From the NCBI RefSeq assembly GCF_003633755.1, contig NZ_RBIL01000001.1, positions 2,837,426 to 2,901,425 of the forward strand: a stretch of DNA of 64,000 nucleotides, read 5' to 3'. The position numbers and the translations under genes are program-made. Source of the stretch: Solirubrobacter pauli (GTDB lineage: Bacteria > Actinomycetota > Thermoleophilia > Solirubrobacterales > Solirubrobacteraceae). Below the pieces are notes generated by a model. The model had not been told where the DNA came from. It made no database searches and saw only the letters and a program-made list of their open reading frames with translations. Positions 38,353 through 45,959 of the stretch are shown piece after piece; the first letter of the stretch is position 1, and every line of letters begins with the position of its first letter.

Positions 38353-39243
38353 GTGCTCAACTGGCTCACACGGTATGCGGTCCTGGTGGACGACCTCGGT
38401 CCGGGGCGGCCGAGCGTGCTCGACGTCGGGTGCGGGCCAGTCGGCCTCTACAGCGTGCTCCCGGACCTGCCGTTCGCGGGCCAGGACATCGCGTTCCCGG
38501 GCCGTGTGGCCGACACGATGTTCGCCGTGCGCACCGCGCCGGGGCCGTTCCCGTGGAAGGACGGGGCCTTCGACACGATCGCCTGCCTCGACACGCTCGA
38601 GCACATGCCCGCGGACGTCCGTGGCCCGTTCGTCGCCGAGCTGGCCCGCGTGGCCGCCCGCCGCGTGTTCGTGTCGTGCCCGCTCGCCGAGGCCGGCGAC
38701 CTCGACACGATGTTCCGGCAGATGTACGAGGCCGCCGGGCTGGACGCTCCCGACTGGCTGGACGAGCACGCCGAGCACGGGCTGCCGACCGGGGCGGAGG
38801 TCGCCGAGGCGTGCGCGCACGCGACCGGCTTCCGCGTGGAGCCCTGGGCGCAGGTCAACGGCGTCCTCTCGACACTCGCCGTCGTCGCCGACGTGCACCC
38901 CGAGCTCGCAGCGAAGGGCGCGACCGAGTACCGCGACCACCACGACCAGTGGCTGCGGATGATGCGCGAGAGCCGCTTCGGCGACTCCTACCGGGTCGGG
39001 TTCGTGCTCACGCGCGAGGCGCCGCTGACGCCCACCGTGACGGTCGACGACTTCGCGAGCACCGTCGTGCGCGCGCTGCGCTGCCCGGCATGCAGCGAGA
39101 CGAGGCTGGAGCGCACCGAGACCGGCTTGCGCTGCTCGGCGTGCACGCTGGAGCTCGTCCCGGACGAGACGGGGGCGTACGACCTGCGCCCGACGTCGTC
39201 GCCGCCCGCGCCCAAGCGGTCGCGGCTGCCCTGGCGACGCTAG
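38353..39243 (+). CDS. class I methyltransferase with C-terminal zinc ribbon
   Basis: 296 residues. Motif I RPSVLDVGCGPVGLYSVL at about 20-37, then FDTIACLDTLEHMPADVRGP. After the catalytic domain, residues about 235-285 carry LRCPACSETRLE and GLRCSACTLEL, two CPxC/CSxC knuckles of a Trm112-like zinc ribbon. A self-contained zinc ribbon may stabilise the enzyme or bind a partner. It overlaps the convergent GT2 gene by 4 bases. Substrate unknown; glycan modification is inferred from context. Confidence 0.78.
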   Translation: MLNWLTRYAVLVDDLGPGRPSVLDVGCGPVGLYSVLPDLPFAGQDIAFPGRVADTMFAVRTAPGPFPWKDGAFDTIACLDTLEHMPADVRGPFVAELARVAARRVFVSCPLAEAGDLDTMFRQMYEAAGLDAPDWLDEHAEHGLPTGAEVAEACAHATGFRVEPWAQVNGVLSTLAVVADVHPELAAKGATEYRDHHDQWLRMMRESRFGDSYRVGFVLTREAPLTPTVTVDDFASTVVRALRCPACSETRLERTETGLRCSACTLELVPDETGAYDLRPTSSPPAPKRSRLPWRR

Positions 39244-40196
39244 GCCTCGGGGCCGCTGACGGTCTGCCAACCGGTGCCGCGGTAGTAGTCGACGACGATG
39301 TCGTCGATCATGCCCATACGGACACCGAGGCGCATCATGCGACGGATCCGCGACCAGTCGCCGGGGACGTCGAACAGCGCGTCGCCGAGCTCGAAGACGA
39401 TGAACCGCATGTCCCTGTGCATGAGCGACGCCTGCATGTTGACGGCGCCGAGCGCGGGTGGGAACCGGCAGACGAGCCGGTCAGGGGTGTCCGGCACGTG
39501 CTCGAGGATCTGGCCGTAGCAGAACTCCAGCCGACGCTCGCGCGCAGCCTTCAGCAACAGCTCGATCCGTCCGGGACGGCACGCGTCGTCGTCGTCCATC
39601 TGGGCGACCCAGCGTCCGCGCGCCAGCCGCAACGCCTCGTTGGCCGGCGGTCCGCCCGCGACGTACCACAGCCGATCGGCGACTTCGTCGTATGGGCCGC
39701 GCAGCGTCTGGTTGTAGAAGCGCACACGCGGATCGCGGACGCTCTTGACGGCGCGCTCGATCTCAGGGGCGGCAGCGTCGCCGACGATCACGATCTCGAA
39801 GCGCTCGTAGGTCTGCGCCAGCATCGACGGGAGCGAGCGCTCCATCAGCGCCTCGACGTTGGTGTACGTGGTCACGACGAAGCTGACCAGCGGCTCGTCT
39901 TCCTCGAACGCGAGCTCGTACTCCGGTGCCTCGCGGATGCGCCAGAGGCGTTGGCGGTTCGCGGGCTCGTCGTCGTGCACGAGCCGCAGCAACTGCCTGG
40001 TCTCAGCCTGATCGGCGGTTGCCTGGGCGCTCAGCGCCTGCAACCTCTCGGCGAGCTGGGTGTTCAGCTCGGCCAGCTCGGCGACCTGCGCCTTGAGGTC
40101 GCTGAGCTCCGCGACCTGCGCCGTGAGCGCTTCCACCCCGGCCCGTGTGTCGTAGATCCGCTGCGCCGCGTTGCGAACCGCACGAAGGGGTCTCAA
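39240..40196 (-). CDS. GT2 glycosyltransferase with N-terminal coiled coil
   Basis: 318 residues from TTG 40196 (GTG 40220 gives 326). Residues about 17-70 are a heptad helix (EALTAQVAELSDLKAQVAEL repeated-type). The GT2 domain starts near 103 with PLVSFVVTTYTNVEALMERS, and has RWVAQMDDDDACRPGRIEL with an acidic DXD-type run. The TAGCGT box 7 bases before TTG 40196 favours that start. It is divergent from the aminotransferase operon across 40 bases. The coiled coil could dock with the other coiled-coil proteins of the locus. Confidence 0.8.
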   Translation of the reverse strand: MRPLRAVRNAAQRIYDTRAGVEALTAQVAELSDLKAQVAELAELNTQLAERLQALSAQATADQAETRQLLRLVHDDEPANRQRLWRIREAPEYELAFEEDEPLVSFVVTTYTNVEALMERSLPSMLAQTYERFEIVIVGDAAAPEIERAVKSVRDPRVRFYNQTLRGPYDEVADRLWYVAGGPPANEALRLARGRWVAQMDDDDACRPGRIELLLKAARERRLEFCYGQILEHVPDTPDRLVCRFPPALGAVNMQASLMHRDMRFIVFELGDALFDVPGDWSRIRRMMRLGVRMGMIDDIVVDYYRGTGWQTVSGPEA

Positions 40197-40203
40197 GGGG
40201 CGA

Positions 40204-40209
40204 ACGCTA
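40204..40209 (-). promoter_or_regulatory. -10 box TAGCGT, leaderless type
   Basis: Minus-strand TAGCGT ends 7 bases before TTG 40196; the same hexamer serves the wzt TTG start. Confidence 0.45.
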
Positions 40210-40222
40210 CCACGGGTCACGT

Positions 40223-40236: not shown

Positions 40237-41373
40237 GTGAGCCCCGTGTCCAGTGCCGTCGCGACCGTGCGCTACCAACGCCCCTGGTTGCCGCCCGCGG
40301 AGCGCGTGCTGGAGTACTACCGGCTCGCGGAAGAGGCGCGGTACTTCTCCAACGGCGGGCCTTGCGTGCGGGAGCTCGAGACGCGCCTGGGCGCCCGGCT
40401 CGGCGGGGTCGAGTGCGTCACCGTCGCCAACTGCACGCTCGCGATCGTCATCGCGCTGCGGGCGCTCTGCGACCCGCGCCGGCGGCTGATCGCGACGCCG
40501 GCCTACTCCTTCACGGCGACGGCGTGCGCGGTCGAGGCGGCCGGCTTCGAGCCCCTGTTCGTCGACGTCGACGCCGAGAGCTGGCAGATGGACGGTGCCG
40601 AGCTGGCCGCGGCGCTGGAGGCGCACGCCGGCGAGGTGGCGGGTGTGCTCGGGAGCTCGACCTTCGGCACGCCGCCGACGGCCGGGACGCGTGCGGCGTG
40701 GCGCGCGACCGCGGAGGCGCACGACGTGCCGCTCGTGCTGGACTCGGCCGCCGCGTTCGGCGCGGTCGACGACGAGGGCCGGGCCGCGGGCACGGCCGGG
40801 GAAGTCGAGCTGTTCTCCTTCCACGCGACCAAGCCGTTCGCGATCGGCGAGGGCGGGTTGCTCGTCACGGCGGACCCCGAGCTGGCGGCGCGCGTCCGTC
40901 GCCTGCAGAACTTCGGCCTGGACCCGGTGACGCGGGTGAGCGTCGAGACGGGTACGAACGCGAAGCTGTCGGAGCTCGCGGGTGCCTGCGGGCTCGCGAT
41001 GTTGGACGCGTTCGACGAGCAGCTCGGCCTGCGTCGCGGCTGCGCGCGCGAGCTGCGGGACGCGCTGGACGGGCTTCCGGTCGCGTGGCAGGCTGGCGCG
41101 GACGGCTCCACGTGGCAGGTCGCGCCGGTCCGTGTGCGCGACGCCGCGAGCCGCGCCGCGGTGCTGGCCGCGGCGGCCGCCACGGGCGTGGAGGTCCGGA
41201 CCCCGTTCGATCCGCCGCTGCACCGGCATCCGGCATTCGCGGGCGCCAGACGCCATGGGACGTTGCCGGTGAGCGACGAGCTGGGGGCTCGCACGGTCGC
41301 CCTGCCCATGGCGAACGACCTCACCGCCGACGAGCTCGCGCGGATCGCCGGGGCCGTACGGCGGAGCCTGTGA
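40237..41373 (+). CDS. DegT/DnrJ/EryC1-type sugar aminotransferase
   Basis: 378 residues, fold type I PLP enzyme. PLP-binding Asp169 in PLVLDSAAAFGA and Schiff-base Lys199 in ELFSFHATKPFAIGEGG are intact; FSNGGPCVRELETRLG and FVDVDAESW are typical. It should transaminate a nucleotide-linked keto-sugar, giving the amino group that the downstream formyltransferase could acylate. Its stop overlaps the next start (GTGA). First gene of a four-gene unit. No keto-sugar dehydratase such as RmlB is present in the window, so the substrate must be made elsewhere. Confidence 0.88.
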   Translation: MSPVSSAVATVRYQRPWLPPAERVLEYYRLAEEARYFSNGGPCVRELETRLGARLGGVECVTVANCTLAIVIALRALCDPRRRLIATPAYSFTATACAVEAAGFEPLFVDVDAESWQMDGAELAAALEAHAGEVAGVLGSSTFGTPPTAGTRAAWRATAEAHDVPLVLDSAAAFGAVDDEGRAAGTAGEVELFSFHATKPFAIGEGGLLVTADPELAARVRRLQNFGLDPVTRVSVETGTNAKLSELAGACGLAMLDAFDEQLGLRRGCARELRDALDGLPVAWQAGADGSTWQVAPVRVRDAASRAAVLAAAAATGVEVRTPFDPPLHRHPAFAGARRHGTLPVSDELGARTVALPMANDLTADELARIAGAVRRSL

Positions 41374-42935
41374 GCGCACCGCGGGTCGTCGCGCTCGCCG
41401 GAGGCCCGGTCGGCGTGGCGATGCTCGACGTCCTGGCTGCGCACGGCGTGGGGCCGGTCGGCGTGATCGCCAGCCACGCGGGCGGCGGCAGCGGCCGGGC
41501 GTGCCCGTTCACCGTCGCGTGGTGCGAGCGCAACGACGTCGAGCACGCCTACTTCCCGCGGTTGCGCGGGGTCGCGGAGCCCGCGCGGTGGCTGGAAGCG
41601 CGAGCGCCGGACCTGCTGCTCTCGCTGTCGTACGATCTGATCCTGCCGGACGAGCTGCTTGCCTTGGCGCCGCGCGCGATCAACGTCCACCGCGGGATCG
41701 CGCCCGACTTCCGCGGCGCCTACTCGACGATCTGGGCGCTGGCGCGAGGCGCGGGCGAGCTCGGCGTCACAGTGCACGCGATGGTCCCGGACGTCGACGC
41801 CGGGCCGATCCTCGCCCAGCGGCGACTCCCGGTCGGGAGCGAGCTCACGGCCGCGGAGGCGATCCCGCTCGTCGAGCGTACGGCCGTCGAGCTCCTCGAC
41901 GCGGTCCTGGACGACCTGATCGCGGATCGGCTGCCCGCGCGCCCGCAACCGCCGGGAGGCCAGGTATTCGGGCGCGAGCTGCCCGCCGCGGAGCTGATCG
42001 GCGCAGCCGACGTCCTGCGGGCGCGCTTCAACCCACCGTACCCGGGGCCGTTCGTCACGCTCGGCGAGCGCCGGTTCGAGCTGGTGGAGGCGCCGCCGCC
42101 CGCCTCGGAGGCCGAAGGCCCGCTGACCGCTCTGCCACGCCTGGTGGCGCCCGCCCGGTGGCACAACGCGCGGGACTTCACCCGCGGCCTGCCGGCGGTC
42201 TGGACCGCGCGGCCCGAAGCCGCCGCGGCGCTGACGCTGGACGGTCCGGTCGCCCTGCCGACGTGCATGAGCCCGGCGATCGCCGACGCCGCGCGCGGCC
42301 TGGACGTCGTCACCTACGCGCTCGACGCGCTGCTCGACCCGTCTCCCGGCTCGCTGGCCGACGCGGCGCCGGGGCGGACCGTGGTTCTGAGCTGGACCTG
42401 CGGCCGTCCGCCGTCCGCGCGTGCCCGGCGGATCGCGGCCGAGCACGGCGCGCGGGTGGTCGAGGACCGCACGGGCGCGCTGCTCAGCCGCGACCCGATC
42501 GAGGGCACCGCCGTTCTCGACCTGGCGACCTGGACCGGCAGCCGCGACGGCGCGGCGCTAGTGCACGGCGGGACGCACATCGCCGCCGACACGATCAGCG
42601 CGGATGGTGCCCGCGAAGCGCTGACGGTGTTCGACGCGGCCACGGCGCGCGCCCGCATGGAGCGCGCGGCCACCCGCTACATGGCGGCGCTCGGTCCGGT
42701 CGCCGCGTTCACGCACTGGCCGCCCGGGACGGTCGCCCACGGCTTTCCGATCATCATCGAGGACGCCGCCCTGCGCGAGCGGATCGACGCTGCGCTGCCG
42801 GGCCTCGTCACGCGGCCGCTCATGGGGCACGAGCGCGCACAGGCGGTGCTCGCGTTGCCCTGCCACGCGGGCGTCACCGATGCGCACGTGGACACCGTCC
42901 TATCCGCGCTTTGCGACGCCGGGGTCGGGGCGTGA
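41370..42935 (+). CDS. sugar N-formyltransferase fused to PLP-less aminotransferase-like domain
   Basis: 521 residues. Residues 1-240 are a formyltransferase: the catalytic Asn105, His107 (INVHRGIAPDFRG) and Asp143 (DVDAGPIL) have the same spacing as the triad of ArnA. It should use N10-formyl-tetrahydrofolate to formylate a nucleotide-linked amino sugar. Residues about 290-521 resemble the DegT aminotransferase fold: ARVVEDRTGALLS keeps the PLP-type Asp366 and VLALPCHAGVTDAHVDTVLS matches the C-terminal LALPMAADLTEAEIARI motif of its neighbours. The Lys segment reads LATWTGSRDGAALV, with no lysine. The second domain is therefore probably non-catalytic, perhaps for substrate binding or pairing with the neighbouring aminotransferases. 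Confidence 0.8.
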   Translation: MSAPRVVALAGGPVGVAMLDVLAAHGVGPVGVIASHAGGGSGRACPFTVAWCERNDVEHAYFPRLRGVAEPARWLEARAPDLLLSLSYDLILPDELLALAPRAINVHRGIAPDFRGAYSTIWALARGAGELGVTVHAMVPDVDAGPILAQRRLPVGSELTAAEAIPLVERTAVELLDAVLDDLIADRLPARPQPPGGQVFGRELPAAELIGAADVLRARFNPPYPGPFVTLGERRFELVEAPPPASEAEGPLTALPRLVAPARWHNARDFTRGLPAVWTARPEAAAALTLDGPVALPTCMSPAIADAARGLDVVTYALDALLDPSPGSLADAAPGRTVVLSWTCGRPPSARARRIAAEHGARVVEDRTGALLSRDPIEGTAVLDLATWTGSRDGAALVHGGTHIAADTISADGAREALTVFDAATARARMERAATRYMAALGPVAAFTHWPPGTVAHGFPIIIEDAALRERIDAALPGLVTRPLMGHERAQAVLALPCHAGVTDAHVDTVLSALCDAGVGA

Positions 42936-42984: not shown

Positions 42985-43815
42985 ATGACCGCGGCCGCCG
43001 GTGGGCTCTTCGGCTCCGCGGCGTATCTCGAGGCGAGCGCGCGCCACGACGGCGGGACGCCCGACACGCTCGTGCTCGGCGGGGTGCAGCTTCCGGTCGT
43101 GGTCGAGCCCGGTGGGGCGCTGCACACGCCGTACGGGTACCCGCAGCCCACGGGCGACACGTCCGCGGAAGCGCTCTCGGCCGCCGCGGAGCTCGCGGCG
43201 CGGCATCCGCGGCCATGGCGGCTCGCGCTCGCGCCCGTCGGCGCCGGCGAGGCGTTCGCGGCGGCGTTGGCGGCGCACGCGCCAGCGGTTTCGTCGCGGC
43301 CCATCGCCGTGCACGACTTCGACGGCGGCGACCCGGTGGAGCGGTTCAAAGGTGAGACGCGCACGATGGTCCGGCGCGCGCTGCGCAGTGGGGCGCGCGT
43401 CGAGTCCGGGCCGGTGACCCCCGCGTTCGGAGCGCTCTACCGAGCCGCGATGGACGCGCTCGCCGCGCCCGCGCACTACCGCTTCGACGACACGTACCTG
43501 CTCGCGCTCGACGGGGCGGGCGCGGTCCAGTGGGAGCTGCACGACGCACACGGACTCGCTGCGGCGGCGCTTTTCCTCGTCGTGGGCGAGGAAGCGACCT
43601 ACCACCTGAGCGCGAGGCGCCGCACGCCCGACCCGCCGCCGGGCGCGGCCAACCTGCTGATCGCGGAAGGCCTGCGACACTGCCGGGACGCGGGCGCCGA
43701 GCTCTGCTATCTCGGCGGCGGCCGCAGCGGGGCCGCCGACGACCCGCTGCTGCGCTTCAAACGCACGATGGCCACGCGAATCGTCGATCGCCCCACCTTC
43801 GAGCACGCTCCATGA
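42985..43815 (+). CDS. FemAB-like / GNAT-fold acyltransferase
   Basis: 276 residues. The C-terminal half has the FemAB/Acetyltransf_6 pattern: YRFDDTYLLALDGAGAVQ, AAALFLVVGEEATYHL and LCYLGGGRSGAADDPLLRFK with the terminal FKR motif. Such enzymes transfer amino acids or acyl groups to amines in cell-wall and glycan precursors. Embedded in an amino-sugar operon, it may acylate the same 4-amino-type sugar. A GGGAG Shine-Dalgarno sits 6 bases before ATG 42985, unusual in this window. The 49 bases before it are the only gap in the operon. Confidence 0.75.
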   Translation: MTAAAGGLFGSAAYLEASARHDGGTPDTLVLGGVQLPVVVEPGGALHTPYGYPQPTGDTSAEALSAAAELAARHPRPWRLALAPVGAGEAFAAALAAHAPAVSSRPIAVHDFDGGDPVERFKGETRTMVRRALRSGARVESGPVTPAFGALYRAAMDALAAPAHYRFDDTYLLALDGAGAVQWELHDAHGLAAAALFLVVGEEATYHLSARRRTPDPPPGAANLLIAEGLRHCRDAGAELCYLGGGRSGAADDPLLRFKRTMATRIVDRPTFEHAP

Positions 43816-44888
43816 CGTCCGTCCCGTTCCAGCGGCCCAGCCCGGCCGGGCTCGAGCAGATCGCGGCGCACTACGCGCGGTCGGAGGCGGTCGGCTGGTA
43901 CACGCGCGGCCCCTGCGTCGAGGAGCTGGGCCGGCGCGCCGGGGCGCTCGGCGGTGGGTACGGGGTGCCGGTCAGCTCGGCGACCTCCGGCTTGATGCTC
44001 GCCCTGCGTGCGCTCTCCGGCGCCGGGGACGGGCGGCTCGTCGCGATCCCGAGCTTCACCTGCGCCGCCGTGCCCGGCGCCGTCGAGTGGAGCGGCTTCC
44101 GGCCGCTCTTCGTCGACGTCGAACCGGATGGCTGGCACGTGGACCCTGCCGCGCTCGAGGCCGCTGTGGAGGGGCGCGAGGTGGCGGCGGTGCTCGTGAG
44201 TGCGACGTTCGGCACTCCGCCGCCGGCTGAGCAGCTCGCCGGATGGGCCTCCGTCGCTGGAGCGCACGGGCTTCCACTGATCTACGACGCCGCGGCCGGT
44301 CTCGGCGCGGCGGACCCGTTCGGCGCGCTGACGGCCTACTCGTTCGAAGCGACGAAGCCGGCCGGGTTCGGTGAGGGCGGCGTGCTCGTCACACCCGACC
44401 CCAAGCTGGCCGAAGAGCTACGCCGGCTCGCGAATTACGGTCTGCGCGACGGCGTGGTGAACACGACCGTCGGCATCAACGCGAAGCTGTCCGAGCTCGG
44501 GGCGGCCGCCGGCCTGGCGGCGATGGATGGGCTTGAACACCTCGTCGCCGAGCGCCGGGCGCGCGGCCTTGCGCTGCAGGAAGCGCTGCGTGGCGCAGAC
44601 GTTCGCTTCCAACACGGTTGTGAGCATTCGGCATGGAGTGCCACCCATGTGGTGGTGGGTTCCCCGCGGAAGCGCGACGCGGCGCTCACACGCGCTCGCT
44701 CGCTGGGCGTCGAGACCCGTACCTTGTGGGACCCGCCGTTGCATCGTCACGCCGCCTGGTCACACGCCGAGCATGGTGGGCTCGCGGTGACGGAGCACCT
44801 GGCGGCACGGTCGCTGGCGTTGCCCATGGCCGCCGACCTCACCGAGGCCGAGATCGCGCGAATCGCGGAGGTGTTCGTTGCGGCCTAG
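43812..44888 (+). CDS. DegT/DnrJ/EryC1-type sugar aminotransferase
   Basis: 358 residues. Intact PLP site: Asp159 in PLIYDAAAGLGA and Lys182 in TAYSFEATKPAGFGEGG. It is clearly paralogous to the enzyme at 40237 (shared TRGPCVEEL-type entry, RPLFVDVEPDGWH, TLWDPPLHRH and LALPMAADLTEAE). Two active aminotransferases in one operon suggest two amino positions or two amino sugars. ATG overlaps the FemAB-like stop (ATGA). Its TAG stop begins a TAGAGT hexamer. Confidence 0.87.
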   Translation: MTSVPFQRPSPAGLEQIAAHYARSEAVGWYTRGPCVEELGRRAGALGGGYGVPVSSATSGLMLALRALSGAGDGRLVAIPSFTCAAVPGAVEWSGFRPLFVDVEPDGWHVDPAALEAAVEGREVAAVLVSATFGTPPPAEQLAGWASVAGAHGLPLIYDAAAGLGAADPFGALTAYSFEATKPAGFGEGGVLVTPDPKLAEELRRLANYGLRDGVVNTTVGINAKLSELGAAAGLAAMDGLEHLVAERRARGLALQEALRGADVRFQHGCEHSAWSATHVVVGSPRKRDAALTRARSLGVETRTLWDPPLHRHAAWSHAEHGGLAVTEHLAARSLALPMAADLTEAEIARIAEVFVAA

Positions 44889-44990: not shown

Positions 44991-45959
44991 ATGACGTTCC
45001 TGCGCCGTAACTTCTCACCGCATGAAGTCCGCCTCGTCGCGTATGCGGCGCTCGTGGTCTGCGCGGTGATCGTCTTCTCGGGTGCCGCCGTGCGCCTGAC
45101 GGGCTCCGGCCTGGGCTGCTCGGACTGGCCGCGCTGCAACGGCACGAGCCTCACGCCGGAGCTCAGCTACCACGCCCTGGTCGAGTTCGGCAACCGGCTG
45201 ATGACGAGCGTCGTCCTGATCCCGTGCCTGCTCGCGGTGTGGGCGACGGCACGCCGGCGGCCGTTCCGGCGCGACCTGCTGCTGATCGCCGTGCTGCTGC
45301 CGGTCGGCGTGCTCGCGCAGGCGGTCTGGGGCGGGCTCACGGTCATCTTCGACCTGTCGCCCGGCTGGGTGATCATGCACTTCCTGCTGTCGATGCTGTT
45401 GCTCGTGGCAAACGTCGCGCTGGCCTGGCGGGCGACCTTCGAGCCGGGCGTACGGCCGCCGGCTCGCGACAAGGTGAGCACCTGGGCGGTGCGCCTGCTG
45501 GTGGTGCCGGGCTTCGTCTCGCTCACGGGCGGCACGATCGTCACCGCCGCCGGTCCGCACGCGGGCGGTGCGGGAACCGGCGACGTCGTCGAGCGGATCA
45601 CGTGGCACGGCCCGGGGGAGACGCTCAACTGGGCGATCGAGCGTCACTCGACGATGGGCGCGATCCTTGGGTTTTTGAGCGTCGCCGTGTGGGTGATCGT
45701 TCGGCGCCGCGACCGGGACCCGCTGATCCGCCGCGCCACGACCGTCGTCTGCATCCTCCTGGCCTGCCAGGGCGCCGTCGGCGCCCTGCAGTGGCAGCTC
45801 CACCTGCCAGCCGGGCTCGTCTGGGTCCACGTAACGCTGGCGACGCTGACGTGGGTCGCGATCCTGACGGCGGCCGCCACGGGCGGCCGCATCAGCGCCC
45901 CCACGGCGTCGCCGGACGTGCCCGCTCCTTCGCGCGAGCACGAGGTGGCGCTGTCCTAG
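44991..45959 (+). CDS. ctaA: heme A synthase, CtaA/COX15 family
   Basis: 322 residues, eight predicted membrane helices. FSGAAVRLTGSGLGCSDWPRC is quoted in parts: the GAAVRLTGSG motif is diagnostic, and Cys43/Cys49 form the extracellular Cys pair seen in Bacillus-type CtaA. Candidate heme-ligand histidines are His61 (HALVEFGNR), His130 (VIMHFLLS), His219 (ERHSTMGAI) and His280 (VWVHVTLA). It converts heme O to heme A for cytochrome c oxidase. It is metabolically unrelated to the surrounding glycan genes and is convergent with the membrane protein at 45956 (4-base overlap). Confidence 0.9.
   Translation: MTFLRRNFSPHEVRLVAYAALVVCAVIVFSGAAVRLTGSGLGCSDWPRCNGTSLTPELSYHALVEFGNRLMTSVVLIPCLLAVWATARRRPFRRDLLLIAVLLPVGVLAQAVWGGLTVIFDLSPGWVIMHFLLSMLLLVANVALAWRATFEPGVRPPARDKVSTWAVRLLVVPGFVSLTGGTIVTAAGPHAGGAGTGDVVERITWHGPGETLNWAIERHSTMGAILGFLSVAVWVIVRRRDRDPLIRRATTVVCILLACQGAVGALQWQLHLPAGLVWVHVTLATLTWVAILTAAATGGRISAPTASPDVPAPSREHEVALS

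Follow-up and report, generated by a model that had tools for sequence, protein, structure and literature searches.

A formyltransferase fused to a degenerate DegT-like domain between two aminotransferase genes of Solirubrobacter pauli

Background

The closest described counterparts of the protein reported here are ArnA, in which the second domain is a decarboxylase/dehydrogenase, and the PRK06988-type formyltransferases. Another described group is the TDP-3-aminoquinovose N-formyltransferase type (PDB 4xd1, 5uij), formed by sugar N-formyltransferases that measure about 400 residues and end in a non-catalytic tail, which we take to be an ankyrin repeat. As for enzymes that have lost their PLP lysine, the LCB1 subunit of serine palmitoyltransferase is a lysine-less protein of PLP fold that pairs with an active subunit.

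Here we describe a gene of Solirubrobacter pauli whose product joins a formyltransferase to a degenerate DegT-like domain (hereafter the C domain); the gene lies in a stretch of 64,000 nucleotides, which as a whole is called the window, between two genes for intact aminotransferases of the DegT/DnrJ/EryC1/StrS family (PF01041). The pairing of the two domains is real and so far singular. With ArnA and the PRK06988-type enzymes this protein shares the Formyl_trans_N domain, the Asn/His/Asp triad and a sugar-cluster setting that includes a DegT aminotransferase; in contrast, its second domain is aminotransferase-like and apparently dead, and in NCBIfam it falls far short of the equivalog cut-offs. 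It resembles the TDP-3-aminoquinovose type as a probable sugar N-formyltransferase with a putatively non-catalytic tail, whereas in this case the tail is DegT-like. Compared with the DegT family itself, the C domain is remotely similar at the profile level, in a collinear way, and keeps Asp366 and the end motif, but it lacks the lysine, the loop that binds the PLP phosphate and the residues of the GxNxR motif, and it is unmatched by curated models. The C domain is similar to LCB1 in having a PLP-enzyme fold (putative in this case) without the lysine, and differs from it in being fused to a different enzyme.

Results

The fusion gene and its coding signal

The coordinates of the features are given in Table 1, and genes are named hereafter by their first position. 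The fusion gene is a single intact open reading frame; its GTG start overlaps by four bases the stop codon of the upstream aminotransferase gene (40237), and the ATG at 43812 likewise overlaps by four bases the stop codon of gene 42985. The G+C content at codon position 3 (GC3) amounts to 0.92 for the N half and 0.93 for the C half, and it stays between 0.82 and 0.96 in each step of at most 150 bases, which indicates that both halves are read in the same frame; a frameshift was ruled out by this stepwise pattern. The earlier note had claimed that the C-terminal half has no PLP lysine, and this holds even for the entire protein, given that none of its 521 residues is a lysine. Two genes of the window are lysine-free, one of them being this gene. 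At the lysine frequency of the window this absence seems unusual (P ~4e-4), but the count covered 55 genes, and the neighbouring aminotransferases are also lysine-poor (2/378 and 4/358 residues). A scan of the sequence for promoters and terminators gave nothing above chance, and the short DNA repeats mostly reflect the two aminotransferase genes.

Table 1. Features of the fusion gene and of its surroundings (positions in the window)
Feature	Position	Strand	Basis
Methyltransferase, shared glycan module	38353..39243	+	weak, below-cut-off matches to Methyltransf_11/23/25
Family 2 glycosyltransferase, shared glycan module	39240..40220	-	PF00535, 1.9e-15
DegT aminotransferase, intact; start possibly further in; lysine in FHATKPF	40237..41373	+	PF01041, 1.3e-69
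Fusion gene, formyltransferase and degenerate DegT-like domain, 521 aa	41370..42935	+	open frame, GC3, GTG overlap
Formyltransferase part, residues 1-254	41370..42131	+	PF00551, ArnA match
Asn105 (41682-41684) and His107 (41688-41690), catalytic triad	41682..41690	+	
Asp143, catalytic triad	41796..41798	+	
C domain, residues 255-521, degenerate DegT-like; boundary approximate	42132..42935	+	HMM, HHalign
Asp366, at the site of the PLP-ring Asp in DegT enzymes	42465..42467	+	4/4 MAFFT settings
Arg392, PLP-lysine column	42543..42545	+	MAFFT, HHalign; gap in hmmalign
LALPCHAGVTDAHVDTV, DegT-like end motif, from residue 494	42849..42899	+	
Putative acyltransferase, FemAB-like by weak evidence	42985..43815	+	PF09924, E 0.04, below cut-off
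Second intact DegT aminotransferase	43812..44888	+	PF01041, 6.4e-63

Genomic setting

The two aminotransferases are 47% identical, and the best NCBIfam model for the 40237 product was TIGR04427 (DesI), below its cut-off. Gene 42985 had been proposed to encode a FemAB-like acyltransferase; one PF09924 match speaks for this label, but weakly, as it is below the cut-off (E 0.04; 13.4 bits against 27.5), and there was no match in NCBIfam. A second N-acylation carried out by the 42985 product would be a guess.

Parts of this cluster are found elsewhere. The 38353 methyltransferase is 49% identical to the gene that adjoins the aminotransferase in locus L101, and the 39240 glycosyltransferase is 41% identical to the gene adjoining the aminotransferase in L102 and 32% identical to a gene in L101; the window has in common with L101 the module of aminotransferase, methyltransferase and glycosyltransferase, and with L102 that of aminotransferase and glycosyltransferase. 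A hexapeptide acyltransferase follows the aminotransferase in L102, and in L104 the gene next to it looks NeuD-like by eye; the aminotransferase type of the neighbours adjoins another acyltransferase in two of the seven related loci (one by Pfam, one by eye). The position beside the aminotransferase is thus taken by another acyltransferase in one related locus or more, and formylation of the aminotransferase product is the step that would naturally be expected here.

Three further observations concern these loci. In the same genus, locus L089 (9076-11672 and 14706-17955) carries two tandem formyltransferases adjoining a PF13480 acyltransferase, with two DegT aminotransferases nearby, which indicates that the combination of formyltransferase, acyltransferase and DegT protein itself recurs; the 42985 product has no sequence similarity with the PF13480 acyltransferase. 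Locus L101 (690-1520, 8055-9218) holds the aminotransferase that, within the phylum sample, comes nearest to the 40237 product (55% identity), and a flagellin-like gene was recognized by eye in the same stretch, so that in L101 the module might act in the glycosylation of flagellin. A gene that by eye resembles heme A synthase (CtaA/COX15) is found near this aminotransferase type in the window (44991-45959), in L104 (11759-12724) and in L105 (8074-9033).

The formyltransferase half

Residues 1-254 make up an ArnA-like formyltransferase, its catalytic domain being followed by an apparently shortened C-terminal formyltransferase subdomain. Formyl_trans_N (PF00551, Pfam) matched residues 63-163 with 63.1 bits against a cut-off of 26.1 (E 3.6e-17), and the best PDB relative of this half was ArnA (E 2.8e-17, residues 77-263). 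The triad Asn105, His107 and Asp143, which had been located by its ArnA-like spacing, is present at the positions given; its catalytic role is presumably the one that these residues have in ArnA. In NCBIfam the fusion protein matched best the PRK06988 formyltransferase (1.4e-26), followed by Fmt and ArnA, all of them below the equivalog cut-offs; the ArnA match reached 65.6 bits against a cut-off of 777 and was confined to the formyltransferase part.

In the genome there are five places with PF00551, corresponding to PurN, PurU, an Fmt-like gene (L003), a PRK06988-like gene and the fusion gene; the Fmt-like and PRK06988-like genes score below their own cut-offs, L003 slightly. Given that these functions have separate genes, the fusion protein need not be a housekeeping enzyme. 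Several of the closest relatives of the N half are of the Fmt type: L078, L079 and L082 score above the Fmt cut-off, and L087 and L088, which surround L008 and L009, hold genes that look Fmt-like by eye, the one in L087 with a deformylase-like gene upstream. Methionyl-tRNA formyltransferase was considered for the fusion protein and rejected on its score (69.5 bits against the Fmt cut-off of 201.5) and on the presence of the other Fmt-like gene, L003. The N half is very probably a working formyltransferase, and its setting with two DegT aminotransferases suggests that the substrate would be a nucleotide-linked amino sugar.

The fusion protein is not the only formyltransferase of this genome to have an unusual tail: in L003 (400-2088; contig C2, around 2149300) the Fmt-like formyltransferase is followed in frame by a match to PRK09687 'putative lyase' (2.1e-35, below cut-off), a model that we take to be HEAT-repeat-like.

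The C domain is a remote relative of DegT aminotransferases

The C domain alone had no Pfam match and was recognized by no NCBIfam model; it was absent from the 26 places returned by a PF01041 search of its own genome with E up to 10, and none of its matches to PDB sequences was significant (best, 2-aminoadipate aminotransferase, E 0.18). A profile built from 22 DegT proteins of this and related genomes scored it at 23.0 bits, the best shuffled sequence reaching 7.3 bits (1905 scored) or 11.6 bits (1889 scored) in two tests for which 2000 shuffles were made (hmmsearch scored those numbers; 500 further shuffles of the first test stand outside the tally), and the reversed C domain giving -0.5 bits. 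The best non-aminotransferase protein among 273 gene calls reached 4.9 bits; these calls include repeats from overlapping loci, aminotransferases, and the fusion gene with its fragments (12.0-26.5 bits), which were excluded as controls. With HHalign the C domain and the 22-sequence profile were collinear over 257 columns with 96.7%, and with the start of the domain placed three residues earlier the value was 95.1% over 182 columns. The result was unstable with three 9-sequence subsets of non-neighbour DegT proteins (23.8, 90.4 and 94.1%), and one of these subsets scored the C domain at 20.8 bits and a shuffle at 14.1 (in this clade and subset test 1000 shuffles were made per profile and 798 to 913 were scored). 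On the basis of these profile comparisons we judge the relation to be real, the C domain being apparently a remote relative of the DegT aminotransferases by common descent.

Some of the weak BLAST matches of the C domain would point to a different assignment. In the class-wide search 3 of the 399 genomes gave a match, namely its own, L039 (7.5e-4, a DegT protein) and L040 (7.6e-4, not DegT), and in the phylum-wide search 6 of the 396 did so, its own and L109-L113, none of the latter five being recognized by the DegT profile. L109, L110 and L111 (E 1.6e-5, 4.3e-5 and 2.0e-4), labelled as Gfo/Idh because they group by BLAST with PF01408 proteins and were recognized by eye, surpass the DegT match L039 of the class search, and the other weak matches L040, L112 and L113 are also unrecognized by the DegT profile; from these the C domain could have another alpha/beta fold, with Gfo/Idh/MocA-like oxidoreductases as the best BLAST candidates. 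However, a profile of 19 Gfo/Idh proteins, L109-L111 included, gave 0.8 bits on the C domain, under its best shuffle (9.3), and 7.2% with HHalign, against 23.0 bits and 95.1% for the DegT profile tested alongside. The Gfo/Idh/MocA identity was ruled out by that score, and the HHpred-type comparison that had been suggested as a check for an unrelated fold sides with DegT (95-97%). We consider another alpha/beta fold very improbable, and we take the matches to L109-L111 as chance similarities between alanine-rich sequences.

Residues kept and lost, and predicted structure

The two landmarks on which the DegT likeness had been based, Asp366 in VVEDRTGALL and the end motif, are both present. The PLP-lysine column has no lysine: seven MAFFT alignments and HHalign place Arg392 in it, and two hmmalign runs leave a gap. 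The SGT phosphate-binding loop of DegT proteins corresponds in the alignments to a gap of about 20 columns in the C domain, HHalign leaves some 30 columns empty from the lysine loop up to the GxNxR motif, the polar residues of this motif are not kept, and the C domain is roughly 100 residues shorter than DegT aminotransferases. The Asp366 site, the lysine and the phosphate-loop positions presumably have the roles seen in DegT structures. The regions that are missing, i.e. the phosphate loop and the some 30 residues after the lysine, help to form the active site of the DegT dimer. Judging from its sequence, with no lysine and with the PLP-phosphate loop and the GxNxR residues lost, the C domain cannot work as an aminotransferase.

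From the single sequence AlphaFold2 gave no usable model (mean pLDDT 40.4); for the C domain aligned with the 22 DegT proteins the value was 66.3, and two stretches of the domain were under 50, namely residues 1-27 and residues 130-162, the latter holding Arg392. When the C-domain model was compared with known structures using Foldseek and VIA-align 2, sugar aminotransferases came first (Foldseek E 1e-6), other PLP-fold enzymes were found too among the Foldseek matches, and most matches start near residue 60 of the matched chain. The comparison with WecE (Z 13.7 over 218 residues, rmsd 4.0) is partly circular, since the model was built on a DegT alignment, and so is the predicted secondary structure, which follows the order of the DegT core. 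Given that the input alignment was made of DegT proteins, the model shows compatibility with the aminotransferase fold and is not independent proof of it.

Relation of the C domain to the neighbouring aminotransferases

The earlier note had aligned the C half by eye with the two neighbouring DegT enzymes. This alignment stands at the level of the DegT family, as the profiles indicate, and fails as a likeness specific to the neighbours: with BLAST the C domain did not match either of them significantly (E 0.36 and 0.52), and a profile of nine aminotransferases of the neighbours' clade gave 2.1 bits, within the shuffles (best 8.8), and 2.7% with HHalign, whereas a profile of the 13 other DegT proteins gave 21.6 bits. 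When the 22 proteins were compared one to one with the C domain using phmmer, the best was L039 (18.4 bits), a LegC-family aminotransferase above the cut-off of that model, and the 40237 product was the last. From the clade split and the phmmer order it follows that the by-eye match reflects the DegT family and not a recent duplication, and a duplication of this kind was rejected as the source of the C domain.

These comparisons bear on the proposal that the pseudo-aminotransferase pairs with an active neighbouring aminotransferase, or holds its product, and passes this product to the formyltransferase. The genes belong to one unit on the + strand with overlapping start and stop codons, and this proposal is also favoured by the fact that DegT enzymes work as dimers and that inactive PLP-fold subunits are known in heteromers. 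However, the C domain is related to other DegT proteins and not specifically to the clade of the neighbours, it lacks regions that help to form the dimer active site, and a formyltransferase was found in none of the seven loci with relatives of the neighbouring aminotransferases (L101-L107, each of 5 to 19 kb; N half as BLAST query, E up to 1). We regard this channelling as improbable.

Occurrence of the fusion

With the whole protein as query, 141 of 146 genomes of the family gave a match, and among the matches listed outside the fusion gene all begin in the formyltransferase part; in 396 genomes of the phylum (E up to 1e-14) 12 genomes matched, those other than its own again in the formyltransferase part. 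Searches with the C domain found the fusion in its own genome only, both among 399 genomes of the class and among 396 of the phylum. The search for this domain architecture that had been called for thus showed the fusion in no genome but its own among the 146, 399 and 396 genomes, samples that overlap. A scan of contigs with six short peptide patterns, which finds close relatives only and in which records of this or near genomes may be absent, gave 67 stretches, two of them confirmed and both in the formyltransferase part; the C domain had no relative in 21 stretches from viral contigs and no match in plasmids. The fusion is represented by one sequence, and a literature search over titles and the openings of abstracts returned no description of it.

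Among 49 distinct formyltransferase frames from the fetched loci, 32 have a tail of more than 40 residues, and an aminotransferase-like tail was seen in one, its own (the 17 frames with a tail of 40 residues or less were unscored, and frames run from stop to stop, some ending with their locus). This result, together with the presence of the fusion in one genome and with the large losses and the absence of several PLP residues, would agree with the C domain being a jobless remnant, in which an aminotransferase gene was fused in frame, shrank and decayed, and was tolerated because the formyltransferase still works. In contrast, the frame and the GC3 value (0.93) are intact through the C domain, and secondary structure in the order of the DegT core is still predicted, with the circularity mentioned above. 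A remnant is conceivable, although we hold it to be unlikely.

Discussion

The explanation that we favour, to which we give about an even chance, is that the fusion protein acts in a glycan cluster as a sugar-nucleotide N-formyltransferase and carries a non-catalytic, PLP-free accessory tail derived from a DegT protein. The sequence shows the gene, its domains, the triad and the missing residues; the substrate, the formylation and any role of the tail are inferred. In the manner of the ArnA and PRK06988-type enzymes, the protein would use Asn105, His107 and Asp143 to formylate the amino group of an amino sugar bound to a nucleotide, with 10-formyltetrahydrofolate as the donor. This amino sugar would be produced by one DegT aminotransferase of the same unit on the + strand, or by both; as one of these is DesI-like, the substrate is perhaps a dTDP-4-amino-4,6-dideoxyhexose. 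Given that an acyltransferase lies beside the aminotransferase in two of seven loci, the fusion protein may fill the N-acylation slot of the glycan cluster. The C domain, without taking part in catalysis, may contribute to stability or oligomerization and perhaps contact the sugar nucleotide. We consider an accessory tail more likely than a remnant, and channelling is less supported. A bolder form of the same idea, in which the retired aminotransferase fold acts as a carrier that, without PLP, either recognizes the nucleotide-linked amino sugar or associates with the active aminotransferases, and hands the amino sugar over at the formylation site, seems decidedly improbable.

Extra tails occur on some sugar N-formyltransferases. 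If the tail were dispensable, this would simply be a fused gene that is decaying; if the carrier idea proved true, a dead enzyme would have been reused as a substrate or docking module, and it would be derived from the kind of enzyme that normally acts one step earlier.
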